Assembly: GCA_037042915.1 (NCBI GenBank)
Contig: CM073203.1
Location: forward strand, 2,294,001 to 2,358,000
Direction: 5' to 3'
Length of the DNA: 64,000 bases
Origin: Auricularia sp. M13
Taxonomy: Eukaryota; Basidiomycota; Agaricomycetes; Auriculariales; Auriculariaceae
Shown here: positions 1-17,632 of the stretch, in pieces
Layout: every line of letters begins with the position of its first letter
Numbering within the stretch: the stretch's first letter is position 1
Program-made: the position numbers and the translations under genes
The notes under the pieces: model-generated
Databases searched by the model: none
Seen by the model: the letters and a program-made list of their open reading frames with translations, nothing else
What the model was told of the DNA's origin: nothing

Positions 1-282
1 GGCGGCAAAACGGTCGAAGGGCTGCGACGATGTAAGAGAGACGTACACAAAACGGCACCACTTACTGGATCTCTGTCCCGTAATGCATCCATCAACGCAA
101 GAGCGTCAGCAGTACGCATACTGGGAACTCACGGCCGGGTAAAACCGAGCACGCTCGCCGCGGAAACGGTCGTGGTCAATGCCGCAATGAGACACTGAAC
201 AATAGTAGCAAAAGACCGGCAGTCTCACCCACTGGGAGGATTTAAAAGCAAGCCTAACGAGCGAAGTGGTGGACGTACAACA

Positions 283-1003
283 ATGTCTGACACACAAAGC
301 CAGCCAGGCGCACACGACGTGGCGCGTACGCCGAAATCGCTGAAGTGGACCAACGCAACACTCCGTCAGGAAAACGAGCATCTACGCAATCTTATCAAGG
401 TAATCGTAGTCGCCTTTAGGGAGAGGGGACCTGTCTGATAGTAGTACTGTTAGGTCGCCCGCAAGCAGAAAGAAACTGTCACGGATGTCAAGGCGTTCTT
501 CGCAGGCGTACACTGCGACGACTTTATACAGGTCTCAGTGCCTGCGCTGGCGCCAATGAATCCGGCACGCCTATCGACCCTTCGCCCGCAAGTTTGGTTT
601 TATTCCGCCACGTACAACGACTGGAATATCACGCCCAAACTCGTTAACTGGCAGGAAACCGTCATCAGCGAACTGAAGGGGACGCGTCTTGTGAACAGTT
701 ACGCGATTTATACGGAAACAACGGCCGTCGGCGAGGTTAACCAGCCCGTGTACGAAATTACGCACGGGCAACCGGTTTTCGGCAACGTCATGGTCGTAAA
801 ATTGACGGGCGATGAGGATGCCTTCGCGGACGATGTCGAGGCAGAGGATCTAAAGATGATCGGGCAAGTTCTGCGTAGGTTGGTGCTGGGTTCATTGCTA
901 CAACACTGCTGATACCTCGTACGACAGCGTCCTACAGGACGGCAGGATTTCGCAAGGAACTGTCGTTCTTGCGAAGAAGAAGAAGAGTCAGGCCGCGCAG
1001 TAA
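283..1003 (+). CDS. Hypothetical protein, 205 aa, three exons
   Basis: Function not recognised. Exons 283-399, 454-878 and 928-1003 join in frame to 206 codons ending in TAA. Introns are 54 and 49 nt with GT-AG ends and a ctgctgat branch-like site in the second. The first 50 residues are polar and helix-prone with a leucine pattern (a short coiled coil is possible). The middle is mixed alpha/beta, and the C-terminus ends in a run of four lysines. A TATA-like tttaaaag lies about 40 nt upstream of the chosen ATG. It sits on the strand opposite the Helitron gene, downstream of its stop, so it could be Helitron cargo or a neighbour. The exon model is well supported by frame closure; the function is unknown. 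Confidence 0.6.
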
Positions 1004-1874
1004 GGGGTATATTGATGTTGATTGTAGGATTGTGTATAGGTTTTTGATAATTATGATGCGTTAATGTCGATCCGAAAGCGTCCAAGACAGCGATGAGCAG
1101 CAGAGTCAATCAGCGCGCACGGATACGGGAAAACCACAGATATATCGCCGTAAAGCATACGAGTGAGCGTTTAAAGTGTAGGAAGATGGTCTTGAGTATC
1201 ACGACAAGCAGTTTCTTGGAGCATACGGGCCCAAAGGTCGTTCTGCGATAAGGGAAACGAGACCGTCGGCGCCCGTTACGCACCGCTTGACGCCGGCGAG
1301 CGCGCGATGCTATCGATGGTGGTGCTCTGTCCGTCACACGCCCGTTGCAAGAAAATGGGCTCTCGGACACGGACGCGAGCGAGATCACAGGTATCGGCGT
1401 CCATGGTCCGCTTGCACAGGGCGACGTGCCAGACCATGTCAGCGTCCCGTCCTTTCCGACTGGCATCTTCGAGCAGCAGCCGAGATACCCAGGCCCCGAG
1501 TCGCGATGACTATCCGACGCGTGGATCGCGCCGCGATTGCGGAGATATGCGAGCCATGACATGCATGGGTACAAGCACGTGCTCGACAGTGGTTAGAGGA
1601 TCGATAAGCGAGAGTGCACAAGCTTTCGATGAGAATACTGGAAATTCCGGAGAGCCACAGACGAGGGGTTGATGAGCGAAAGGCGGTAGATATTCATTGC
1701 AAGCGCTGGACAACCTGAGACGCGGTGACCGGGACGCGCGTCGCGCGGAGTCTGAAAATGAAGCCGTCGTCACCGTGTAGCCTGGCTCTTACCATGAAAT
1801 CGACTCAATTACACCTGGGACACACGTGCTCGCAAAAGTGCTGTGGATGCATCTTCGACAGACTTGACGACAGT
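1004..1874. other. Gap between hypothetical gene and Helitron stop
   Basis: No gene I can support. About 1292-1530 on the plus strand is open in one frame with protein-like composition (starting near residues DAIDGG and ending PGPESR before a TGA), which may be an exon of an unresolved gene. The Helitron 3-prime end (hairpin plus CTRR) should lie here on the minus strand, but I could not fix it. Confidence 0.3.
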
Positions 1875-4800
1875 CTAAGCAAAGCTTTGCCGCAAGTAGA
1901 GCGCTACAGGTGAGTTATCCCATCCACGCGCGGTCACTTTATCCTGATCGGCAAGCGCTTGAAACACACGCTGGGATTCCGCAGAAAGAGGACTAGTTAT
2001 GTGTCGATTATTGAAGCGACGTAGCACTAAAATATTCCGAAGCGCGACTACTCTGCTCAGCATGACATAGGCGGATTCTCGCGAGCGTAGGGTGCTGTTG
2101 AAAACTGTTTGTTAATAACAACGTTATTAACAAAGTGTTATTAACATGTTAATAACAGAGGACCCCAGGAGGGCCTTGTTAAAAACAAATTTGAACACAT
2201 CAATTGCTGAGGCCCTGGCACATTGCAGGGACATAAATCTACTTTTGTATGAGCCTGAGTGCCTCAACATGAACTCAAGCTTGTGTTTTGTAATCTCAGA
2301 AGGTATGGAGACCTAGGCCAACACTCTCAGCTGTGAGTGTATGATGACTAAGCACTGCTCTGAGGCTTGGCCAAGGCTCCCAAAACCATCAACATGAGGT
2401 GTGAACACCACAACAGCTTGTGGCATCTCCTTCGTGCAGTAATAGTTGACAAGAACACTTACAAAGGGTCATAATTGGGTCATTACTGACTTTCTGAGCT
2501 TCCTTTGTTATATTATGTAAGTTTGTTATTAACAGTGTTTTTAACACCGTGTTAATAACAGGTTTTGTTAAAAACATGTTAAAAACTCCCCGGGAGTTTT
2601 TAACAGCACCCTACGCGAGCGAGCGGACAGCAGGTCGAGGATGGCATATATCAAGGTACGCCCCTGACTTTTATAATCAGTATAGGCGTAGGCTGGAAGC
2701 AGCGGTACTTGCCATCTGGACACGGTCATCGTCGTCTGATTTCGTCTTCGAACTTTGAAATATCTAGAATCCGGAAATACTGGCACGACACCGGGGTCCA
2801 GGTCGGGGTACTGTAAAATGGACCCTTCGACATGAACAAGTACACAAAGAAGATAACGACCCCCTGTAGGAGTAACAGAGTAAATAATCCGTCGCACTGT
2901 GCCTTCCGCGCCGTTGACGATGCCGCCCTTCGTCACAAGATTGCTTAGCACCATGACCTTCATGCCGACCACGAGAGGTAAACGGCCCATACGATCAAGC
3001 GTCTCCGAGCCCGGTTTGCTCAGGACTCGCTCTCGATTCGTATCTGTCAACAGGCGACCCTGTGCGCGATCGATGGCTTCATACTCGACGTACGCTTGAC
3101 CTGTACGGTCAGCATATCGATGTACGGCATGCCTGTTCCACTCGTCCCGCACCAGCTTACTTCCAGTAATCAAGGGTGCGTCCAGGAAGTCGTCACTGTC
3201 AGAGGCCACTCCCATCTGACGTCGTCGCAAGGTATTACAATCTGCATCCGATGCGGTACCTTCGCCAACACGTTGGACAAGTTCCTGATACACAGCGTCG
3301 TCCTTTTGACGATAGTTTTGCCTCAAAATGACCACGTGTGAGAGTGCCTTCCAAAGAGAGCGACCATACGCTAACTTCTGGCCTTTCGCAGTGGCCGATA
3401 GTGTAGCCGATGTTCGGTTCGGTGCGGTTCGGCGGCAATTTTTCCGAACCTCGAACCGAACCTGGTCCCGAACCATCAAACCCGAACCTGGGGTTCGGTT
3501 CGGGTTCGGTTCGGGGTTCGAACCTTGAACACACTATATAATCATAAATAGATACTTTAAATACTAGTACGAAGCACATATTGATGGTGGTTGATCATAA
3601 TTCATGATTATGACTCTCTGTTAATGTTATAAGGTCTTGCAGAGCCTGATTTTAGAGCTGCAAGCTTGCATATCACATTGTGGGAATGTATTATGTCATC
3701 TGATTGCCTCCTCAACTCCTTGCCAACAATGCCTAAGGTTTGATAGACACCTTCGTAGAGCTGATATACATGTTACATAAGCAGAACTGGGACAAAGGTG
3801 GTCTCTAAGCCAACAAAAGTTGAGATGTCTGAGCTTTATATAGGAGGAGGTTCGCAGGTTCGGTTCGGTTTGAACACGGTTCGGACAAGGTTCGGCTTGG
3901 CACTGAACCTGAACCTGAACCAGCCCGAACCTCGGTTCGGTTCAGGTTCGGTTCGGGGGTTCGGAGGTTCGCGAACCGGACTCCGGCTACACTAGTGGCC
4001 GAGCTAGGATCATTGTCGTTCGGTTCGCTCCATGCTGCCCTATCTCCCACAGGTGGTAACTGCCTCGGATCACCGATGAAGACGATGTTAACGCCGCCGA
4101 AAGGTAACTCGTTGCCAAAGATCAGCTGTAATCGCTGACTTATGTTTGCAAGCATGCGTGCCCCTACCATGGAGACTTCGTCAATAATGAGGTATCTCAC
4201 ACATCTCCACGCATGCTGTAATAATTCCAACGTAGGTCCTTTTAACATGGCGAGGTGAAGCTTTAGTAACGCATGTAGGGTCTCCGCTCTAATCAAATAG
4301 GACGCGATCCCGGTCGGCGCAGCTTTCTTCAGCTCCTCCAAGGCGGCTATGGTACTGAAGAATTCATCCCACGCCTTGACAATATGACTCTTTCCAGTGC
4401 CACCGCCTCCGACGACGAACATAGTGAGTTGATTATCAGTTACGTTGAGTCGATGTTCACACACAATACTAAAGGCTCGCGACTGTTCCTCATTAAACCG
4501 ATACTTACGTACGATATCTAGCATAACATCAGGAATGGATGCGTCGTCTACGGCCGTTTCTGGCGCTGTGACCAATCGCACTCGTTCTGGATCGTGAAAC
4601 CATCGATTTACGTGTTCATTCTCGTCATCCGACGCAATCCCATCTTCTGCGGCTTCAGTCCACATGGGCAGTTCCGCTTTCAATCGCGCTGTTTGCGCTC
4701 TGTATGTGCTGACGTCCGCGGCAGTAGACTCCGATTTTTCCTCTGCTCGATCAACTAATACGCTCCGTCGCTCCACAGGCTTCACGTGATTCAACGCGGT

Positions 4801-7800
4801 GAGAACGGCTTTCTTCGCAGATTCGGACTTTTTAATGCTATCCTTACTGACGAGGATTTCGTCTCCAGGCCCACCGGCAATGTATTCGCCCTCGCCGTCA
4901 AGATCGGGCCCGCCTACGTATCCAACAAGACCAGGGTGATGTTCGTTCAACCATTCGGCCAGATTATCATCCGTTTCATGGCGAGCGCTAGCAAGAGCTT
5001 TGTCGAATATCTCGGCACTGACGATGTCATGTACGATGACACCACTACGTCGAAGCTCGCGGTACGCATCACTCGCGTCTTTACACTCATGGACCGCAGC
5101 AAAATTCCGTTGAATCCGAAGACTATGTTTGTCGAAAGTATACGCATCAAAAGCTTCTACCCAAGTTTGCGTCGGTTCCCTCAAATCTGTCCATTCTCTC
5201 CACGGCTTAAATAGGACCAGCATTGCCCTACAGTAATCAGAGTATTGATCTGGACGGTCGGCGCGAGGCAGTGTAGGTCCTACTATACAAGGCACCGCGA
5301 TTCGATCACGCATTCTAATCATCTTGGAAACGTGATTCGGGTGAGTGTATAAGAACGGTATACGCGCAGTTGCCCTATCATTAGACTGATGCCTAGTACT
5401 GTAGCGATGCTCCTCACTTTTGGCAGTCAGAGTAGATGTACACGCGAAGAACCAGTACAGCGGAAGATGTGAGAGTTCCTGTCCTCGAAACCTGTAATCA
5501 TCTAACTGTGTGGACGGAGTACGCTTACTGCCGTTGAATTCGACGTCTTCGACCTCTGCGCTGGTATTGGACTGGACATGTTCCTCCGGCGCGGGAAGGG
5601 AATCGTCCTGCAACGCGGCCGTCTGCTCTTGACGAACAACCCAACGGATCAGACTGCCCCATAAGACGGTAACGAAGGTATCGCTCGTATAATGGTCGGA
5701 ACTGCCTGACTTATGGAAAAATAGAGCAACCTCCTGTGCGGAGACCTCGCGACAAGCTAGAAGTGCATTACAGGCTCTGGTGAGGAATCGAGCGCCATGC
5801 TCAGCTTCATCATAGTCCTCTTGACTCCCGACGACGCGCGACGCATCGTGGTTAAGCGGGTCTTGGATTCGATCAATAAGCTTCGATAACGCGCAAAACG
5901 CTGCATCCGTGGGCAGATTGTCCTTGGTTATATAATCCGTGATATAGTAAGTTAAAGCCTTCGCAGCTTCTCCTGATCCAATGAACTTAACATCGTTATT
6001 GCAGCGCGCCAACATAGAGAGCGTCGGATTATGTTGATTGATGTCCGGATGCCAGCGGCGTAACAGTATGGACCCACTAGGCTTATCAATTATGGTCTCC
6101 GGACGCGTCTCCCCGTTCATTCGCATTCGACACAAGGCTGGATCGCGAGCCTGCCCTTTCTTAAGGTATTTGTAACATGTAGCATTGTGCGTATGATAAT
6201 GAGATTCGTAGGTAACCTGGATGGACTGCCGCTGCCACTCCGCGTCGAAATCAGGATCGTCAGGGTGCGGACATTTCATAGTACTAGAATGAGGTGCTCC
6301 ACGCGGGCGATGCTGACGCTTGGCTTCAGCAGGTGGTACAACGCCAGTATTACCGGGAACATGCGTCGATATAATACTATGAAGCCAGTCAAAGAGCCTC
6401 GCCTTAAAAGAGTCGTCGCTGTCCATTTTATCTCTCAACAGCTGAGGCGGTAGAGACCCAGCTATCCATACAATAACATGACCGTGCAACGAACCGCGTC
6501 CCTGTGGCTCCACAGTTGCGTAATAGGCCGTCACCTTACCAAATAAACCTTCGCCACCGTTCTTCATGCCCAGGACAACATCGACGAATGCAGTAAACAT
6601 AGTATTAAAGAACTGAGCGGCCGCGGTAGGGTTCTTGGCTACCATATAAGCACGTTGATAAGCACTGGGATAATCGGCCTGTACTCTGTCGTCAAGATTG
6701 ACGTTCAAGCCTGCTAACTTCGCGAATAGGGGATGATACATGTCCGGCGGATTCAATGTAACGAAGAATGTCGGCAAGCAGTGAAGATGCATCAAACCTC
6801 TGATCTCGTTGCGCATTACTCTTTTCGCGGCCGGCGTGCCAGGAACATTAACAGGTACGTTCTTGAGCATGTTCATGAAGTCGACAACGGTTTTCTCAGC
6901 GGCGCCTTCAGGATTGACGTAGCCTTGTTTCTTTTCAGCGCGACCGCTCAGTCGTTTTATGGCGTCCACATCGACGTTCGCCAGGAAATCGTGCGCTGGT
7001 TTCCAGAACGATCGACCTACTTTCCACTTAATGCCCTGCCTAACTCGCCTCCGTTGCGCAATATTCATGGCAACATATTGAAACACGTGATCGGTTGCAA
7101 ATCGACGACAGCTGAGGTTGAGTAGATGCCGTACATGTTCTTCGAAACTAATAGGAACGCGTCTATTGCTGTCATTAAGTCCTCCAATACCATATGGAAA
7201 GAGGTGAGGGAATAGACGAGTGTAATAGCTGGGGTTATCCCACTCAGGTATTGGAGTTTCACCGTGACCTACCGCCCAAGCTGTAGCACCCTTTCGCTTC
7301 CACAGTAACATCGAGGTCAGCTTTTGCTGTTGTACACTCTGTGAATCAAAGCACTTGGACACAACACCGGCCGAAGTAAGCGGTATCTGAGAGATATCAG
7401 GCACATTAACGTCTTCGACGGGAGCTGTAGGTGCCGTGGCGTCTTCCGTTCCCGATTGAGTCACTAACTGCATTTGAATCCCGGAAGGCACGCCTTCGGA
7501 CTTAGACGGCAGAAGCCTTTCCATGTTGTCCTCGCAGTAAACAACGTTCGTAAATTCGGAATGATTACTTATCAACCACTTTAATATAGGAACTACAACG
7601 TGACGTCGCACAAGCAAAGGTGTCAGGCGATCAAGATCCTCAGGAGGCGGCAGAACCTTTCCGACAAAAATAACGGATATGGTCGCACGAAGATCGTCAG
7701 GACCCGGCGGTAATTTGTCCAGAATATCAATATTACCATTAACGAAGCTGATGACATTCCCCTTTGTGTAATACTGCGATGGATAATTGCCAGAAGGTTC

Positions 7801-8997
7801 ACCATCATCTGCGTCGGACGCCTTGCCGCTGAACTTGAAAATCGTGCACCTGAGGCGATTTCGTGCAATGAGAGACAATTCCATAGGCGTTGCCTTCATG
7901 AACAGCTGTTGAATATTATCTGGGAGGTTATCCCATCCAAAGTAATTATCATTAGCGAGCGACAAGGGAGGCAATTTCAGTAAGCGTAAATTGGACCAAC
8001 AAGGATCACACACTACTGCGATACATTCAGGCTGACTGCTCAATATACCTCTCGCATCGAGAAGGGCATTTTCGAAAAGGCGCCGATCGTATCCCACCGG
8101 AAAGATGTGACTAGGCAGCGAAGGATTCGTTAATACGCGCAACTGTTCTCTGGATAGCGTCCTTGTGGATGAATGACAACGCAAAACGAGTGCGGAGCAG
8201 GGGGCGCAGGTGTGTAATCGGAACTGATCATTTGAAAAGATGTGTAACCACCTACGAATCGCATCTAAGCGTGTCTGTGGATTAGACAACGGTGGGAACT
8301 CATCTTCATCCTCTCCGACGGACATGAGACGCTCGCAAAGGGCAAGCAACTTGTCCATATCAACCTGTGCCAAATCACGACGTTGTGCCGATACGGTAAA
8401 GCGAATGTCACGACAGATATGTGTGCACCTATGCCGCACTGCCAAATGTCTGTAGCGTTCTTGCGTGCGAGGTCCGCTGCGGGATACATGATGAGCATTA
8501 AGTACGATGCTGAGTAGATCGCTATTCAGGAACTCGAGGGGTAGTTCATGGAAAGCGAGCGATTCCAAGTCCTTGCTGACCTGGACAGATACGACAGGAT
8601 CCATCGCAGCACCATATCCATCAGCATATAAAGAAGCAACACCAGAAGCAGTAGCATCAAGGGCATCCAAATGAGCATCCAAGGGCGCGACAACGCCAGC
8701 ATCCGATGAAGCAGCATCCAGTTGAGCATCCAAAGGTGTAGCATCCATAGCATCCAAAGGCGCACGATCGATCGCGCTGGGCTGAGCACGATGCAATGAG
8801 ACCGAAAAGGTGAACATGGAGGACGCCATCGATGGCGCAGCAACTGTCTCAGAAGGCCCATCGGCTGGAGACTGACGTTCGACGGTAAAGGAAGGTTTTG
8901 TTGTATAGGGTAGAGGTACGCGGGACGATTTTCGACGCTTGGCACCACTGACGTCGACGTCACTGCGCATCCAGTGCGGAGTTGAACATGTACTCAC
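1875..8997 (-). CDS. Helitron replicase/helicase (RepHel), split by two TIR elements
   Basis: Rolling-circle transposase of a Helitron. When the two inserted elements and one copy of each target duplication are left out, 8997-1875 reads as one frame of 1,995 codons including the stop. In order: an N-terminal low-complexity stretch rich in Leu-Asp-Ala repeats; a Cys-rich segment resembling the domain before Helitron Rep; the HUH motif in GRGSLHGHVIVW near residue 836; a Tyr motif (YITDYITK) near 1015; then a PIF1-type SF1 helicase with Walker A GGGGTGKS (near 1530), IIDEVSM, GDPRQLPPV, ILRQNYR, and a C-terminal YKSQGRTL and AYVMLSR. All key catalytic motifs are present with no stops or frameshifts, so the copy was coding when the insertions arrived. 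Start chosen at the first in-frame ATG. Element termini were not located. Confidence 0.93.
2088..2613. mobile_element. TIR element (hAT-like MITE), 526 bp, inside Helitron gene
   Basis: Flanked by perfect 8-bp duplications CGCGAGCG at 2080-2087 and 2614-2621. Ends are inverted repeats starting TAGGGTGCTGTT(A/G)AAAACT. Subterminal zones are packed with the 9-nt palindrome GTTANTAAC (GTTATTAAC, GTTAATAAC). No coding capacity, so non-autonomous. The 8-bp duplication suggests hAT; KDZ (Kyakuja-Dileera-Zisupton) elements also make 8-bp duplications and cannot be excluded. Removing the element plus one duplication restores the Helitron helicase frame between residues LLSARS and ESAYVMLSR. A related element lies at 49393-49887. 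Confidence 0.9.
3399..3994. mobile_element. TIR element (hAT-like MITE), 596 bp, GGTTCGG-rich ends
   Basis: Perfect 8-bp target duplication GTGGCCGA at 3391-3398 and 3995-4002. Terminal inverted repeats begin TAGTGTAGCCG. Both subterminal zones (about 3410-3530 and 3850-3975) are built of GGTTCGG/CCGAACC repeats in both orientations; the middle is AT-rich without an ORF. Non-autonomous. It interrupts the Helitron helicase between the residues DPSSAT and AKGQKLA; deleting it with one duplication restores a continuous frame. Confidence 0.92.
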
Positions 8998-9494
8998 ATG
9001 GCGGGTTTGGCGTCCCCTCCAGCGAATTCGTGATGCGATCTCTTTGCTGGCATCTACGCAGATAGTGAGATCACAGCTGCCAGACAGTTTGGACGGTGAC
9101 GAACGTGGAACGACGATGAAGCGCTGAGTCGAAAGCTTCAGTCGCTCGCAAGCCCTCGGACGGAAATAAGAGCGTCGGAGGCCAAAACATGACTCAGATC
9201 ACGCAACAAAAAGAAAATGGAACAAGGGAAACGTCGATAATGACGATGAGACATGTGCGAGAGAAACCGGCTGAGATTAGAGCTGCTGCCGGTTACTATC
9301 GAGATCCAGGCGCAAACGCGTCCAAGACAACAATGTGTATGAAGGCGAGAGCCGTTCCAATTCAATAAGGGATGGGTACAGTGCGAGTAGAAGGGCAGGA
9401 TGCGGAGCAACTGAGCCACGGAGGCGCGACCGCCCGTGATCGGACGGCGCGTATCAGGTCAGCGTCCTATCTAGCTATCAAATGCCGCAGCTAT
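8998..9494. other. Gap upstream of Helitron gene
   Basis: Expected to contain the Helitron 5-prime terminus (TC) and promoter, not located. A 59-codon plus-strand ATG-to-TAA frame (9189-9368) is present but has nothing else in its favour. Confidence 0.3.
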
Positions 9495-9940
9495 TCAATC
9501 CCGAAGCTCGCCGCGAAGAAGACCAAGTTTGACCTGGGCTGATACTGCGCACAGAAATCAAAGACACGTTAGAAAGGGTGTAAACGATAGCGTCAACAAT
9601 TACCTATCTCCAGGACCAATTCATCCAGCCGCTCAGCGTCCGCGACATCCATGGGAAGAACGCGTCCTGTTGCGATATGATATTTAATCGCAATCACACC
9701 GCCGTATGCGTGAACTCGACCGTGCGACATCATGTAGATGCAATCGTTCAACTCGAGGGTGTGCGCGCGGGAGGCCGAAGGGTTTTCAAAGTATAGGAGG
9801 AGCGCAGTCGCTTCTTCGCCGATGTCACTGAGGGGAACGATCACTGATCGTACCTCTTGCATCCAGCATCGAATATCAACATGGTGAACGGTCGCCGAGG
9901 AGATACGGGTCACAAGAGGGACGATGATGAAAGCGGACAT
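9495..9940 (-). CDS. Small beta-rich protein (OB-fold-like), 128 aa
   Basis: Function not recognised. Two exons, 9940-9604 and 9544-9495, joined across a 59-nt GT-AG intron (9545-9603); 387 nt close in frame. The start is the ATG giving MSAFIIVPLV; an upstream in-frame ATG at 10123 exists but gives a Cys/Ser-rich extension that looks non-coding. The pattern of alternating hydrophobic strands (VDIRCWM, ALLLYFEN, GRVHAYGGVIAIKYH) followed by a short helix resembles an OB-fold nucleic-acid-binding protein; that is a visual inference, not a family match. It is the first gene of the unknown cluster next to the Helitron. Plant and animal Helitrons can carry RPA-like OB proteins, which makes the location suggestive. 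Confidence 0.5.
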
Positions 9941-10564
9941 GTCGAAAGACGTAGGATAGCATCTCGCGCTCAAGAAGGATGGATAGGGCTGTCTGTCATA
10001 AGGCCTCATAGAACGCGGGAATAGCTTGTATGCCACGTACGGGGTTTTGTGAATGAATACGATGCATGATACGGACGATGTCGATGGACCGCATGAGTTT
10101 CGCAAGAACGAAATGACAAGCACAAAGGTACGTTCGAAGAGGGTGAATTCACAGTCGCGAGGTAGCGAGCCTGTATAAAAGACCTCGTGCAGAGCCAGTG
10201 AGTGTTGAGGGCAGTCTCAGTTTCCAGGAACCAGAGCGCGCGAAGAAAGAGAGGCGAGGCAGGGGGAGGAGGTTAAGGCCTCGGTCCAAGTCAGAGCGAC
10301 GCGTCGGACGTGTTGGTGGTCAACGCAACAAGAGACAAGGTCATAACGCAGACTATGTGGAGACGAAAAAGCGGACGTAGCCTATACAATACCGACTCAG
10401 TTCGAGACGGTCCAAATAAGCGAAACAAAAGAACGACGTGTCGCAAACATGGTGTGCTAGGATCATGGTCCATGGATGGCGCGGTGCAGAAGGATATGGC
10501 CATAGATCTGGGACAAGGCGAGTGGGGGCAAGTTGATTATTGCGAGACAATCGCCGAAGTGACC

Positions 10565-10571
10565 TTATAAG
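10565..10571 (+). promoter_or_regulatory. TATA-like element of the 10603 gene
   Basis: TTATAAG about 38 nt upstream of the ATG at 10603, on the same strand; supports this start over the next ATG inside exon 2. Confidence 0.45.
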
Positions 10572-10602
10572 AATGCGGAGAGTGGCAGGATGAAGCACGG
10601 CA

Positions 10603-11198
10603 ATGACGAACGACGAGGAACAACCTGTCGCGAACGACCCCGCAGGTATGCAGGACATAATGTTATGGGATGGGACCTGACGATGCATAGCAGCTTGCCT
10701 CTGTTCTACGTCGGATGGAGTGTGCCCTCTCGGGGCAGAGATGTCGCAGCTGGCGTATCCGGATGTTGCGAAAGAATATCTATCGGTGAGAAAGAACAGT
10801 CGTCATCCGCATACCTTATCTGATGATGCCGAAAGTGTTATCTCACGGTTTATAACCCATCTATGCGCGCGAACGTCGAGCCGTTGAAGTGGAACGCCGA
10901 CGGTACGTTCGACGTCGACGATGCGCAGGCGGACGAATGGGCGATGAAGACTCTGAAACGGAACGATAAGGACCCTATCAAATATCTGGAAGCGATAGGC
11001 GCACTGATCAAGGAGGCTTCGGCGTTGTTGCACCGCGTGAAGCGCGAAGTCGCAGCATCCCGTTTATCGCCCGGAGAGAAATACGAGCATCTTCGCTTCA
11101 TATCCGATTGGACCAGCGGGCTGCGGGCGTACATCGACAGTGGGATGCAGGTAGGCGATGTTCTCCACGAGCTAGTCATGAATATGAGCGATAGCTAG
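10603..11198 (+). CDS. SCY-x-T-NP family small protein, copy 1, 150 aa
   Basis: No known domain recognised. Exons 10603-10645, 10739-10785 and 10836-11198 (introns of 93 and 50 nt) close to 151 codons. The short acidic N-terminus leads to AYPDVAKEYLS, then the intron, then CYLTVYNPSMRANVEPLKW and a helical C-terminal domain ending ELVMNMSDS. It is clearly related to the minus-strand genes at 13681-14283 and 11941-12490: all share S|CY-x-T-x-x-NP, an L-x-W-(D/N)-x-x-G segment about 15 residues later, and the same phase-0 intron between Ser and Cys. The C-terminal half (about 90 residues, amphipathic helices) aligns best with the 13681 gene. No signal peptide or membrane segment, so probably intracellular. 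Confidence 0.72.
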
Positions 11199-11940
11199 AG
11201 GGTGCCGATATATAAATACGACGTCGTTACTATCTTGCATGCAATACGAACGACACGGTGTACGAACACACGCCGTTGACGGCGTTGGATCGCGGGTCAT
11301 CTGGGCGTCCAAGTTCAATCCGGAAGACTGGACAACGGCAGGGTAATTCCAGGGACCTGCCTGTTAGTTACCACCAGCGCGTATAGGGCGAACGACACAC
11401 GCCACGTACGGTCTATGACATGTAACCGCATTGTAGACGATACGTAGCCGTCATGCGCGGGGTAGCGCACTCGCATTCTTTTCCTAGTAAGTCGCCATAG
11501 ATGGGACTCTGATGGGGCCGAGGGCTGCGTCAGCAGAAGTGCAGACGCGGTTAACTGCCATGGTCTGAGTTCGGTTATAACGTGTCTGGCAGCTGGATGC
11601 GGCGAGGATCTGAACTAATATGATCATTTGTATGGTCGGAGGGTCTTACAGAGTAAGAGATCAACTGTACGGACCTTCAGTTCATATCGAGCAGTATCTG
11701 GCCTGTTCGTGACGGACGCCAATACGATGAACGCCATGGGGGCTCTTTGGTGTCATCGGAGGCCTCTTGCAATAAAAAGCACGTCGATTAAATGCTGATT
11801 CGCGAAGTGCACGGTATACAGCACGTAGGGCGTGCGCGAATAAGACGACGTTTGCAAGGACGGGTGATGATGGAGTTTTAAAATAAGGGCCGCTCCGCGG
11901 TCCGGAAGAAAGAAAGGGTGCGACTATTGCGTATCCATAT
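11199..11940. other. Gap inside the unknown cluster; possible small plus-strand gene
   Basis: A good TATA box (tatataaata, about 11206-11216) precedes an ATG at 11239 whose frame runs about 35 codons to a GT near 11343. A second exon ending at a TAG near 11450 is possible, but splice sites are weak. Nothing else supported; 11682-11940 is probably 3-prime flank of the next gene. Confidence 0.25.
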
Positions 11941-12490
11941 TTAAGGGAACCGCTCTTCCTGTTCGATATCATACAAGCAAATATCAAGATGGCGGATAGT
12001 ATGCTCGGCCCAGGTGAACAAAATTGCGTAATGCATATTCAATACATGACGATGAAGCATGGTCTCGTCCAGATCATGCAGACTCTTCATAAGAAAGTTG
12101 AGCACGTCGCGGGCGGCATTTGTAATGACGGGACGAAGATATTTCACGTGGGTGTATTCTGCCATGGCCTGCTGCATCCAGGCATGATCACCGGGTGCGA
12201 GTAACAAACGACCGCGAGAGTCCCAGGCCAAGGGGGGCAAGGAGGTCAACCGCATGGGATTGTGCCACGTAATGTAACACTAGGAACAGACGTTAACGCG
12301 CCGTGCGGGGATATGCATGACAGTTGCGCACGGAGATACAACGCTGGGGTACGTAACCAAACAAGAGAGTGCCGGACCAGGCGGACACAACGCACAATGC
12401 ACCGACGCGCTCGCGTGTGCAAGCACCTATATCTACGGCGTAAGCTCCTCGAATATCGTTGAGTAGATGACAAACAAGGGTACGGGTCAT
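11941..12490 (-). CDS. SCY-x-T-NP family small protein, copy 3, about 165 aa
   Basis: Exons 12490-12332 and 12279-11941 with a 52-nt intron close to 166 codons. The exon junction reads ...VPQRCIS|CYITWHNPMRL..., the same junction and phase as in the copies at 10603 and 13681. It is followed by LPPLAWDSRG and a helical domain. Copies 2 and 3 share the V-P before the junction (EVPIDSLS, YVPQRCIS). The helical domain has diverged strongly but keeps length and helix spacing. The 5-prime end is less sure: the ATG at 12490 lies about 75 nt below a minus-strand TATA (tataaat, 12563-12569), but a small additional intron within exon 1 would not alter frame. Function unknown. Confidence 0.62.
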
Positions 12491-12736
12491 CTTGCATGAA
12501 GGTGTGAGGAAGGAGAGGTTAAAGTGCGCAAGCAGACAGAAAGACATGATACGAGTGCTGAATTTATATTCTTAGACGAACAATGCAGATAGGACCACGT
12601 TCATAGCATTTGTGCATGGGCCAGTCTCACATGTATAAAGCTGGCTCGTGCATAGCAATGATATTAGTAAAGATATCGGACGGCTAAGCTGAAGAGCGGA
12701 GGAGACCATATAACATTCTCTTCTGTCACGTATGGC

Positions 12737-13327
12737 TTAAGAGACACTGAGGAGCGACAAATATGCCATAGTCGGAACCTGGCGCGTCTTCGGGCGCCCG
12801 CCCGCGACGTTCGAGACGGAGAGCATAGAAGTACCCTTGACAATGCGGACGTTGAACGTGCAGACATTGCCGACCACGGCCTTGGAAGCGCAGTCACAAT
12901 CCTGTTGCTGATAGTATTATTAACATAAGGGTATACGGAAAGTAGCATAACTTACGTAGACGTCGAGGTGGGCAGTGTGATGAACCACGACAATCTTCCC
13001 GTCATACCCAAATCCCGCTGCGATGAACGTCAAACCGCGTAGCCCGATGTACGAAGAGCGCAACGAACCATAAACGCCGGTAGACAGCTTTCTCAGAAGC
13101 GCGGAAGACTCCATCGCATCCGCAGCGTCGTCGGGGGCGATAGTGAGGCTGAAGTAGGCCGAACCGGGCATGGTACGAATGGACGTTATGGTACCGCGAA
13201 AAGCAACGTCGACAGCGCGTTGTCCTCCGAAGAAGCATAAGAACTCGGCGGTGTCATTCTGGACGTCTCCCCATTCGAGATTGTCAGGTAGGTCAGAGAA
13301 GGAGCGGTGCGTAGTGGGGCAAGACAT
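12737..13327 (-). CDS. Small beta-rich protein (OB-fold-like), 178 aa
   Basis: Function not recognised. Exons 13327-12956 and 12901-12737 with a 54-nt intron close to 179 codons. Start at the ATG giving MSCPTTHRSF; an upstream ATG at 13390 is possible. The core (about residues 40-120) has strand-like blocks VDVAFRGTITSI, AYFSLTIAP, GLTFIAAGFGYDGKIVVV, reminiscent of an OB-fold. A second beta segment follows in exon 2 (VVGNVCTFNVRIVKG), with a Cys-Asp-Cys at its start, then a basic stretch RPKTRQ. Sits between two SCY-NP genes on the same strand and is spaced closely, so cluster co-expression is plausible. The OB-fold call is inference from pattern only. Confidence 0.55.
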
Positions 13328-13680
13328 AATGGTAGTGGAGGCCGACTGGCGCGCCCTTCGGGAATAAATAGACGGCAGTGTGAGACACACTCTTGTTGCG
13401 GCTGTACAAAAAGGTCATTGCGTTGCAGGAGAGGCGTTGTGGATATAGGTAAGCGAGACACGGGGCCTAGAAGGCGTCTTTACAATAAGAAGGAATGCAT
13501 TGGCCGCCCGAGATGCATGGGCCCGCCGTAGACGCATTGACCAGCCAAGCGCGCATGGACCCGCCAGAGTTGCATTGGCCGCAAACGACACGGAACGAAC
13601 AGGCATGGCCAAAGTCGTGCCAGGCGGATGCGAATAAGGACTGAGACAATGGAATGCAGATTATGATTGGATATAGGGCG
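13328..13680. other. Gap with short GC-rich tandem-like repeats
   Basis: No gene seen. About 13494-13580 holds four imperfect repeats of a segment like GCATTGGCCG / GCATGGACCCGCC spaced about 24 nt, an irregular short tandem array between two cluster genes. Confidence 0.4.
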
Positions 13681-14283
13681 TTACGATCCTCCAAAATACT
13701 CATTGACAAGTTTGTGCAACGCTAAGGAGGCCATATAACCAGCTTCAATGAATTTCAGAGCGCCGAGTTGCCAGTCGAGAACGAACAAACGGCGAGCCTT
13801 CTCCTCGTGAATGGGCAGATCGGCGAGTTCGATGTCGACGCTGATTTCATCGGCGAAGGTCTCGATGTCCTTGCGTGCCTTGCTAAGGACATCGTCGAAA
13901 GCAGCGTTATGCAAGTTCATGCGTATCACCTGATCTGCCCAGGACTGGTGAGAGACATCGTCTGTGAATTGACCGGTTTTATCCCAGGAAAGCACAGGCA
14001 GGTTGAGGCGAGCGAGGGGGTTATGGGCCGTGAAATAGCACTGATATACGGTAAGTACAGGGTAGTTGAGTACACCTCCTAAATCGCACTCACCGAGAGA
14101 CTGTCGATGGGGACTTCTGCGAACGAGAGATGGGCAACGGTTAGACCTCGAGGACAGGGCCTTTGCGCTACAGGACACAAGCACATGCCTGCAGTCGACC
14201 TCGTCAGCCATGTGCATCGCCATGTAAGATCGATTAGATCATAACTCACCGAGAGAAGACGTGGGAATGGAAGGGGCAGCCAT
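13681..14283 (-). CDS. SCY-x-T-NP family small protein, copy 2, 162 aa
   Basis: Exons 14283-14250, 14188-14094 and 14040-13681 (introns 61 and 53 nt) close to 163 codons. The junction exon 2/exon 3 is EVPIDSLS|CYFTAHNPLARLNL, the same position and phase as in the paralogues. Then come LPVLSWDKTGQF, a helical region with ARKDIETFADEIS, and a C-terminus similar in pattern to the 10603 gene (LDWQLGALKFIEAG against SDWTSGLRAYIDSG). The three-exon layout matches the 10603 gene: tiny exon 1, short exon 2, one long exon. A TATA (minus strand, within 14346-14355) lies 60-70 nt upstream of the start. No known domain; likely intracellular. Confidence 0.72.
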
Positions 14284-14345
14284 ACGTAATCGGTCAAGGT
14301 AGATTTCACGGTGGGACGGGGGTGTAGAGAAACGGGTTGTTCCTG

Positions 14346-14355
14346 ATATTTATAG
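14346..14355. promoter_or_regulatory. Shared TATA between divergent cluster genes
   Basis: ATATTTATAG reads as a TATA-like box on both strands. It lies about 25 nt before the plus-strand ATG at 14379 and about 63 nt before the minus-strand ATG at 14283, so one site may serve both genes. Confidence 0.4.
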
Positions 14356-14378
14356 CGAAGACAAGGACGGGAGATGCT

Positions 14379-14657
14379 ATGACCGAGCGGCGCTACGACC
14401 AGAGGTTGGGCCAGACTCAAAGAATATGGAAGAACAGTGTGCTCGAACACTGCGCTCAGATTGCAACGATGCAGGTACGTTGAGCATATTATGAGGGATG
14501 CCAGAGCGTAGCGTATGCGGGCCCGAAATACTGACCAGTTGCGTACGCGCAGTAGTAAGACAGACAGGATGGGGAGCTCGGACGAAAAGAAGCCAACAAC
14601 GAACCAAGAAGTGGATCGCCCATAAGGAGGGAGTGGGGATCGACGAACATGAAATAG
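14379..14657 (+). CDS. Possible small protein, 61 aa
   Basis: Exons 14379-14474 and 14568-14657 with a 93-nt intron (ctgac branch-like site at its end) close to 62 codons. The N-terminal 32 residues (MTERRYDQRLGQTQRIWKN...) are polar and helix-prone; the rest is charged. The spacing from the shared TATA and a strong donor (CAG|GTACGT) support it; the length and lack of similarity weaken it. Confidence 0.35.
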
Positions 14658-15291
14658 AGCGTGCGAGTCAGCGCAAAGCGCATCGTCGCTACAACGGTCA
14701 TAGCGGAAAGAAATTACCAAAAGCGGACATTAAAATTTCAAAGTCAACGTTTCGGGAAAATCCGCAGGAATGAATTGAGAGACCTGAACTAGGGTTCAGG
14801 AACTGCATCGCCCTGATTTTTTTTTTTTTTTTTGGCTGACTTTACCCCTTCTGTCAAGATCGCACCCCCATCACATCACAATCAGAGATAAAGCTACGCC
14901 TTCGTTCCCCCAATCTCCCTCCAAGTGTTTATGCCATGCTTCCTGTTGCTGAGGTCCCAGCTCTGTCTCGGCTCCCTGAGCCATTTTGACAAGCTCATTC
15001 CTGCTCGACGCTTGGTCCTTCCTCGTCGGTGCCGTCAAGAGCATTGAATTATCCAGTCCGGAGCGCCGTGTCCATCTCGGTTCGAACTGGCGGGATATTT
15101 GAATGTCGACCACGGAATCGACGCCGGATGAGCGGTACCGATCTCGGGAATTCCACTTTGACTGAACACCTAGTCCGCTCTGAAATTTCATTCCCTATAT
15201 ATGTGACCCCACGCACGCATTCTCCGCCATCATAACAACTCGAACCAGTTTCACTCAAATCACTCTCGACAGTCCACAACCTACACTCACT
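14658..15291. other. Intergenic: hairpin, 17-T run, promoter-like end
   Basis: Holds an inverted repeat CCTGAAC/GTTCAGG (about 14783-14800), a run of 17 T (14817-14833) and, near 15195, a TATA-like ctatatatg before the next open frame. No gene seen. Confidence 0.4.
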
Positions 15292-16841: not shown

Positions 16842-17632
16842 AGGACCCCCGAAGACCAGTTTAGAGGTGACATCCCGGGCGCGTATAAAATCAATTGAGT
16901 TGACTCGCCGAGGTGACATCCTGCGCGTATAAACCAGCCGGCGCCTACCCTGGAGGTGACATCCCCCGCGTATACGGGGAGGCGGCCCGCAAGGTGACAT
17001 CCCTCCGCGTATACGCGCATCCGGCGGAGCGATGTCACCTCGCGACGTGAGAAAGACAGCCAATGCCATTGCCGAGCCGAGCTGGACGGGTCGGGCATAT
17101 CGCTTCATTTATATTGGTGGGACCGCTGTCTCAGGTATCAAGCTACTAATACCCTGCTTCTCAGGTCGGATATACTACTCCTTGACCAAGAACTTGCCGA
17201 GAACCAGACACGAGCCTTGTAAATCCCGCATTCAAGGAACAAAAGCAGTCTCCATGCGCTAGATGCCCAAATACTCGAAGTACTGCAATACTTATCAAGG
17301 GACGTGCAGTTCCTGTGAGGTGGTTGTAGTGTTCATCGGCGGTTGTTGGATGACCCATCGGATTTGCATGTCCCGCATTGTTTGCATCATATGCATGGAA
17401 GACTACTAGGCCTGTTATGGCCCAATTTGACGGCAGGAGCGAGAGAAAAAGCCATTGTACGGCTGCAGGAAGCAATTCAGTCATATTCGGAGATTGCCGA
17501 GGCGCGTATAAACTTGTCCTGGCCGAGGTGACATCCGTTTTTTATACGCGTCGGGGCCTATAGACGGGCGTATAAACCGGAAGCAACGGACCTCCAAAAG
17601 ATGTCACCTCTGAACTGGTCTTCGGGGGTCCT
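16842..17632. mobile_element. Non-autonomous TIR element, 791 bp, 8-bp target duplication
   Basis: Inverted termini of 33 bp with one mismatch, beginning AGGACCCCCGAAGACCAGTT, flanked by the perfect duplication GTTGTCAA at 16834-16841 and 17633-17640. Inside, both arms carry repeated modules: GAGGTGACATCC (or its complement) followed by CGCGTATA, at least four times on the left (16865-17040) and about three on the right (17500-17610). No ORF of note. The 8-bp duplication fits hAT or KDZ. Structure is clean, suggesting a fairly recent insertion. Confidence 0.88.

Follow-up and report, generated by a model that had tools for sequence, protein, structure and literature searches.

Probable accessory genes of a giant Helitron2-like element in Auricularia sp. 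M13

Described Helitrons and the Auricularia locus

Helitrons are usually portrayed as encoding a single large Rep/Hel protein that sometimes includes an RPA or another domain, and their capture of whole genes has been termed exceptionally rare (PMC6431247). FoHeli, a Helitron2 of Fusarium oxysporum, spans about 5-11 kb, has hairpins at both ends in FoHeli1 and 2, and has been proposed to form circular intermediates; no RPA-like genes were found in it (PMC5148889). HELPO1 of Pleurotus ostreatus spans about 7-14 kb and carries one to four cap genes, interpreted as captured. In the same source, capB adjoins RepHel in four of five other basidiomycetes, and 1.5-kb non-autonomous copies hold one cap gene (PMC4289320).

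We analyzed a window of 64,000 nucleotides (positions 2,294,001-2,358,000 of contig CM073203.1, here C11) in the 52-Mb genome of Auricularia sp. M13, the single genome examined. A preliminary description had placed a cluster of small genes beside a Helitron. The linkage held and the position did not: five small genes at 9.5-14.3 kb of the window sit inside the Helitron. A 26.3-kb copy at C2:2014496-2040808 and a third copy at C10 contain the same gene families in the same order around the same Rep/Hel gene. Thus, the accessory genes, Rep/Hel, and the ends form one collinear unit in the C2, C10, and C11 blocks. The same description had offered an independent selfish or defence module as another option, which is contradicted by the recurrence of genes, Rep/Hel, and ends as a single unit.

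The element resembles FoHeli in its Rep/Hel gene and asymmetric terminal inverted repeats, and apparently also in its hairpins and a TC start after a T-ending target (TNAT in FoHeli), but is 26.3 kb long with about 15 genes, many of them with introns (PMC5148889). Like HELPO1, it is a basidiomycete Helitron with uncharacterised genes beside Rep/Hel, although it has more genes and is larger (PMC4289320). Should V, OB1, or Y prove to bind single strands, the element would also resemble plant Helitrons with RPA-like genes in encoding a helper of that kind. However, plant Helitrons have one known RPA-like family, whereas the Auricularia element has a set of uncharacterised families in which RPA homology was not found (PMC4683698, PMC6431247). 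Many genes in either orientation are also a feature of the 15-25-kb Polinton/Maverick elements, but those use a DNA polymerase and integrase in place of Rep/Hel and Helitron ends (PMC6431247). Among the open-access titles surveyed, we found no account of a Helitron with a comparable gene set.

Ends and genes of the element

The element ends are common to the C2 and C10 copies, and the window boundary matches both (Table 1). From its 5' end, the window copy continues leftward beyond the window start, probably to about C11:2252 kb, based on V, NTase, and Z matches there. The 5'-terminus pattern occurred at eight sites in the genome and a reversed-pattern control at none. The 5' end hairpin, TCCTGAACCCT, has a matching inverted AGGGTTCAGGA that lies 31-32 nt short of the 3' end, giving the asymmetric terminal inverted repeats of Helitron2-type elements; one of the four element copies compared, C10:164968, bears a mismatch in AGGGTTCAGGA. 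The 5' hairpin was more stable than shuffled sequences (z -4.6 and -3.9). A 3' hairpin was predicted in all three folded copies but stood out from shuffled sequences in a single copy (z -3.4, against -1.0 and -1.3 in the other two).

Four copies with both ends visible have these ends in common and differ in their flanks. T precedes TCC at 8/8 five-prime ends and follows CCCTAAA at 4/4 three-prime ends. The borders thus appear to carry a T at each side, as in Helitron2-type elements, though the T is possibly the element's own. Small copies bearing the same ends have spread: two complete 1.39-kb copies at unrelated sites are 97.8% alike and share 94-95% with the first 560 bp of the window.

A Rep domain and a PIF1-type helicase occur together in a single gene, as expected for a Helitron, with matches of window:3805-9198 to PF14214 (E 1.8e-27) and PF05970 (E 4.9e-18). 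The protein contains LHGH and YYITDYITK, which we take to be HUH-like motifs. Two inserts break the gene in the window copy.

Table 1. Features of the Auricularia element within the window.
Feature	Position	Strand	Description
Giant Helitron2-like element, window part	1..14801	-	Boundary common to C2 and C10 copies
5' terminus	14781..14801	-	TCCTGAACCCTAGTTCAGGTC, 7-bp-stem hairpin, T before it; genome-wide pattern scan and folding
Rep/Hel gene	1878..9198	-	Helitron_like_N, DUF6570, PIF1; open pieces 3805-9198, 2568-3533, 1878-2111
MITE-like insert	2078..2623		Within Rep/Hel; 546 bp, 29-bp inverted ends (90% complementary)
GGTTCGG-repeat insert	3492..3958		Within helicase part of Rep/Hel; approximate limits
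SCYa	13681..14283	-	Three-exon model, 162 aa; exons 14250-14283, 14094-14188, 13681-14040
OB1	12737..13327	-	Two-exon model, 180 aa, small beta-rich-looking protein; exons 12956-13327, 12737-12907
SCYb	11941..12547	-	Two exons, 12332-12490 or -12547, then 11941-12279; start 12490 or 12547
SCYc	10741..11198	+	Opposite strand; first exon ends 10785, exon 2 10836-11198
OB2a	9593..10009	-	Open frame, possible extra exon, exon ends uncertain
X	454..912	+	Accessory gene (exon); distant OB2/Z family member

Exon models of the small genes were derived from sequence and conservation. The genes are not chance frames, because homologues of them are found again, in collinear arrangement, at C2 and C10. 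This bears out the earlier view that the small genes are real, with five of them supported; the one or two tiny frames also listed were not confirmed as distinct genes. OB1 has homologues at C2:2039851-2040458 and C10:804338-804945, and X is 45-47% identical to its C10 and C2 copies. OB2a belongs with X and Z to a 'YGDVLVVK' family.

The three SCY paralogues described earlier are present in the window, and a fourth lies about 0.5 kb to its left (open frame C11:2292760-2293452). SCYa has a CxC..C motif, then SCYxTxHNP, then a probably helical part. In each of the element's four SCY genes, a candidate phase-0 intron 50-53 nt long (52 nt in SCYb, 50 nt in SCYc) directly precedes the Cys-Tyr codons, which places 'SCY' across an exon junction. 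The true start of SCYc is probably upstream of the modelled one.

Families, folds, and linkage

No accessory protein reached the cut-off of any Pfam family or had a match near it, in agreement with the initial impression that none belongs to a familiar family. PDB sequence searches with V, Y, NTase, OB2/Z, and SCY and a PHROGs search with OB2/Z/X gave no match. An OB fold had been proposed for OB2a, and we rejected it based on AlphaFold and Foldseek results for a relative from the same element. The model (mean pLDDT 87.4) resembles DUF3846-type proteins, and OB-fold names were absent among the best 50 of its 318 PDB structure matches. The predicted OB2/Z/X fold appears closest to phage DUF3846 (Pfam PF12957; Foldseek probability 1.00, TM 0.51) and giant-virus proteins. 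There was, however, no sequence match to DUF3846: in Pfam at E 1, 0/19 OB2/Z/X members matched, and the PF12957 model found nothing in this genome, where the search's own controls were equally silent. We know of no function for DUF3846.

The motif GS..D[LM]DI, presumably nucleotidyltransferase (NTase)-like, is present in the C2, C10, C1, and second C11 copies; this reading covers those four, the C7, C5, C6, and C2:353-kb copies being left out. Two NTase paralogues, W g10 and g13, are missing either the N-terminal portion or the Asp residues, and 0/6 NTase pieces matched Pfam at E 10. The Y model had a pLDDT of 38, perhaps from exon-piece rows and a probable unspliced intron in the first row. 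Comparison of V with OB1 by hhalign gave a probability of 5.7%, and that of Y with V gave no match.

The accessory genes evolve under purifying selection. Between C2 and C10, dN/dS was below 1 for all 13 genes compared (range, 0.05-0.44), with dS of 0.8-2 for 12 of them. Of the 11 Rep/Hel loci in this clade, 10 have Y, NTase, Z, and V, and the remaining one, C10:1801656, lacks all four families; none of 16 more distant Helitron loci in this genome has them. Places less than 60 kb from a clade Rep number 10/10 for Y, 14/14 for Z, 14/15 for NTase, and 12/17 for V. Of the five remaining V places, four are no more than 8 kb from a copy of the element's 5' end, and one adjoins an NTase piece at C3. 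None of the 24 SCY matches, of which three are weak (E 0.07-0.64), is more than 15 kb from a Helitron Rep gene. They extend the family into a second Helitron lineage, where 4/16 Rep loci are without SCY at that distance. Matches to the accessory families thus adjoin Helitron Rep genes almost exclusively, with the proviso that the family searches score top candidates alone and a few host relatives may escape. In this genome, the genes did not prove to be dispersed independently of Helitrons or of one another. The earlier suggestion that they are accessory factors of the Helitron is the most likely one.

Origin and possible role of the accessory genes

We consider it likely that the cluster makes up the 5' portion of a giant rolling-circle transposon of Helitron2-like type and that its small genes are long-standing accessory genes owned by the element, not recent host captures. 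The accessory proteins could be element-encoded helpers for rolling-circle transposition. The Rep HUH domain would nick the element at its 5'-TC end, and one strand, about 26 kb in length, would be peeled away by the PIF1 helicase. V/OB1 and Y, small proteins of beta-rich appearance, might coat or process this strand or a circular form. The NTase-like protein and Cys-motif SCY proteins may assist replication, ligation, or regulation, or may act against silencing by the host. Giant elements may keep helper genes because their single-stranded intermediate would be large, while short Helitrons may borrow host helpers.

Accessory genes that shield the element from silencing, with no part in replication, are a possible alternative, though we doubt that it is the correct one. 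Presumed anti-silencing genes occur in fungal transposons, e.g., TET/JBP dioxygenases in some Helitrons (PMC12730594). The SCY genes are also many and varied. Among the 13 genes, just one exceeds SCY g1 in dN/dS (0.30), though the value for SCY g6 is 0.10. The core of Y, NTase, Z, and V, however, is retained across Rep proteins that are 46-56% identical to the C2 copy, as expected of machinery and less so of fast-changing counter-defence.

Recent acquisition of host genes or fragments by read-through, carried passively, is highly improbable. Capture is an established Helitron habit, illustrated by the genes of HELPO1 (PMC4289320) and by maize Helitrons of up to 39 kb with as many as nine gene fragments (PMC6431247). 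We rejected it here, as no host paralogues were detected at the thresholds used and family places cluster near clade Rep genes or element ends. Mostly open frames, purifying selection, and collinearity at the dS values of 12 of the 13 genes are poorly compatible with passive freight. Least likely is an endogenised virus or plasmid employing a Helitron-type Rep, which would fit the Polinton-like size and gene number and the viral affinities of the predicted OB2/Z/X fold but not the Helitron2 ends, the failure of Pfam to recognise a capsid, packaging ATPase, or polymerase, or the searches that found no confirmed relatives of Y or V in viral contigs (pattern scans), of Y in plasmids, or of X in phages.

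Our preferred reading, that of element-owned genes, suggests that some Helitrons are much more complex than assumed. Tentatively, giant Helitrons of this fungus, and on this view probably of mushrooms at large, may be complex replicons with their own conserved DNA-handling set (a nucleotidyltransferase, several small beta-rich proteins, and Cys-motif SCY proteins). Such elements might be intermediate in complexity, with simple rolling-circle transposons on one side and DNA viruses or plasmids on the other, and could pass through an extrachromosomal phase. Their accessory families would be largely uncharacterised, with one common to two Helitron lineages. A Helitron2-like lineage retains about fifteen genes of its own under purifying selection and has SCY in common with a second lineage. 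These genes are concrete candidates for new helper proteins in rolling-circle transposition, and a group of fungal protein families, so far uncharacterised, would be explained as transposon genes.

Collinear gene block and element ends

Models of the five window genes were derived from sequence, and searches covered the 52.1-Mb genome of 14 contigs (window, C11:2294001-2358000; w is the C11 coordinate minus 2294000). Single-protein searches with the accessory proteins SCYa, OB1 and OB2a gave their stronger matches in three regions, on C11, C10 and C2, and only weaker matches, followed in part, at other places. Frame-against-frame comparison places the Helitron Rep and PIF1 helicase gene (Rep/Hel) itself in the block common to the three regions. 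At C2, Rep/Hel is an open frame of 2060 codons, the only uninterrupted one among the three copies in which it was read; its identity to the window's two large pieces is 64% over 1552 aligned columns and 73% over 265, and to the two largest C10 pieces it is 83%.

The gene order at C2 is SCY(-), SCY(+), OB2(+), Rep/Hel(+), X(-), SCY(+), OB2(+), Y(+), Z(-), W(+), NTase/W(+), Z(-), W(+), V(+), OB1(-). The C10 copy has the same gene set, but inverted and broken up by inserts, while the window copy follows the C2 order leftwards from Rep/Hel and, unlike C2, has OB1 and an extra SCY on its 5' side. The window copy is damaged, with Rep/Hel interrupted by two small repeat inserts; its accessory frames are still open. 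Between C2 and C10, dS is 0.30 for OB1, the 3'-terminal gene, and 0.77-2.06 for the remaining 12. The low OB1 value suggests that sequence close to the 3' end was exchanged recently.

Beyond both ends of the C2-C10 nucleotide alignment the flanks are not alignable, and the first end is also common to the C11 copy. The 5' end reads T|TCCTGAACCCT(A)GTTCAGGTC and the 3' end AGGGTTCAGGA-hairpin-CCCTAAA|T. Genome-wide, the 5' pattern was found at eight sites and a reversed control pattern at none. Two of the eight belong to complete elements of 1.39 kb that lie at different sites and are 97.8% identical to each other; they show that the ends have been mobile. Their first 560 bp match the window's 5' end at 94-95% identity, after which they jump to the last V exons and the 3' end. 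Judged by sequence, they look like internal-deletion derivatives.

Coordinates of the element copies and associated features
Feature	Location	Observation
C2 copy	C2:2015-2040 kb (search); C2:2014494 to 2040810 (C2-C10 alignment)	
C10 copy	C10:804-849 kb (search)	
C11 (window) copy	C11:2292-2308 kb (search)	
1.39-kb elements	C9:1986369; C10:164968	
5'-pattern site	C7:2688444-2688464	only about 25 bp common with other sites
Inverted 0.67-kb pair	C2:2011040-2011707; C2:2041923-2042592	96% identical; both sides of C2 element, outside its ends
1972-bp direct repeats	C10:828374-830345; 841027-842998	identical; 0.4 kb of Rep gene plus 1.57-kb repeat; bound segment splitting C10 Rep/Hel
Further copy of 1.57-kb repeat	C11:2283930-2285500	98% identical to C10's
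0.79-kb element	w 16842-17632	33-bp inverted repeats (97% complementary), MITE-rich zone
OB1	C2:2039851-2040458; C10:804338-804945	
OB2b	C11:2291815-2292225	
Two related ~15-kb Helitron elements	C6:1110-1125 kb; C6:1128-1144 kb	search-match coordinates only; mirror image, back to back; each with Rep/Hel, NTase, Z, Y, V
Copy with Rep and Y search scores close to those of C6:1128-1144 kb	C5:3459-3474 kb	
Pieces of NTase and V with no Rep gene of this clade	C3:455908-458130	putative remnant or non-autonomous element
Lineage-2 loci with more small proteins	C5:165-175; C1:5313-5323; C6:1587-1597 kb	OB-like by eye (PDGT.VR..G pattern)
Lineage-2 Rep loci without SCY match	C5:3978319; C7:3730107; C3:3515432; C2:4352796	

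Predicted proteins

Pfam searches with the seven proteins tried first and ten from the C2 and C10 copies brought no family near the cut-off (best E 0.06-0.3). OB2, Z and X form a single family, joined through profile matches. AlphaFold modeled OB2b from a 19-row alignment with mean pLDDT 87.4 and pTM 0.84. A Foldseek search of this model against the PDB gave nothing at E 0.001; HEN1 came first (3htx, E 0.012, TM 0.49), followed chiefly by PH domains at low probability. Against viral models, six matches passed 0.001, led by a Gordonia phage Aleemily DUF3846 protein (E 3.4e-4, TM 0.51); six of the best 50 were named DUF3846, and several others were giant-virus proteins. As modeled, the relation to DUF3846 is a resemblance of fold only. 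The AlphaFold run for Y yielded no usable model. V and OB1 are alike by eye (VEW or LEW, GT[VI][VTS]S, LLRR or LIRR), and their profile comparison is weak. NTase is a putative nucleotidyltransferase-like gene, read from its motif alone.

SCY genes in a second Helitron lineage

Weak SCY matches at C1:5318 and C6:1591 were found to adjoin another Helitron, here lineage-2. At the C1 locus, PIF1 was matched in two frames (E 1.6e-18 and 5.5e-27) and Helitron_like_N weakly (E 0.00037). We grouped the 27 search rows for lineage-2 Rep into 16 loci, 12 of which have at least one SCY match. Searching this genome with a lineage-2 SCY protein returned 24 matches, 21 of them no more than 15 kb from a Rep of that lineage; the other three are weak and all within the window's element, and no match fell outside the two Helitron lineages. 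These positions indicate that, in this genome, SCY proteins are Helitron-linked in two lineages. The eight small frames scanned from the three lineage-2 loci, whose further proteins are OB-like by eye, reached no Pfam cut-off.

The element and its accessory genes

Helitron2 ends (PMC5148889), basidiomycete Helitrons carrying one to four unknown genes (PMC4289320) and maize Helitrons with gene fragments, up to 39 kb (PMC6431247), are already known; our search of open-access papers found no 26-kb Helitron in which about 15 genes are conserved as a set. On our reading, the element is the unit of inheritance, and the small genes are the element's own. The main rival account of their function is an anti-silencing role; as the simplest mechanism, the small genes would help Rep/Hel, which would have to deal with single-stranded DNA tens of kilobases long.
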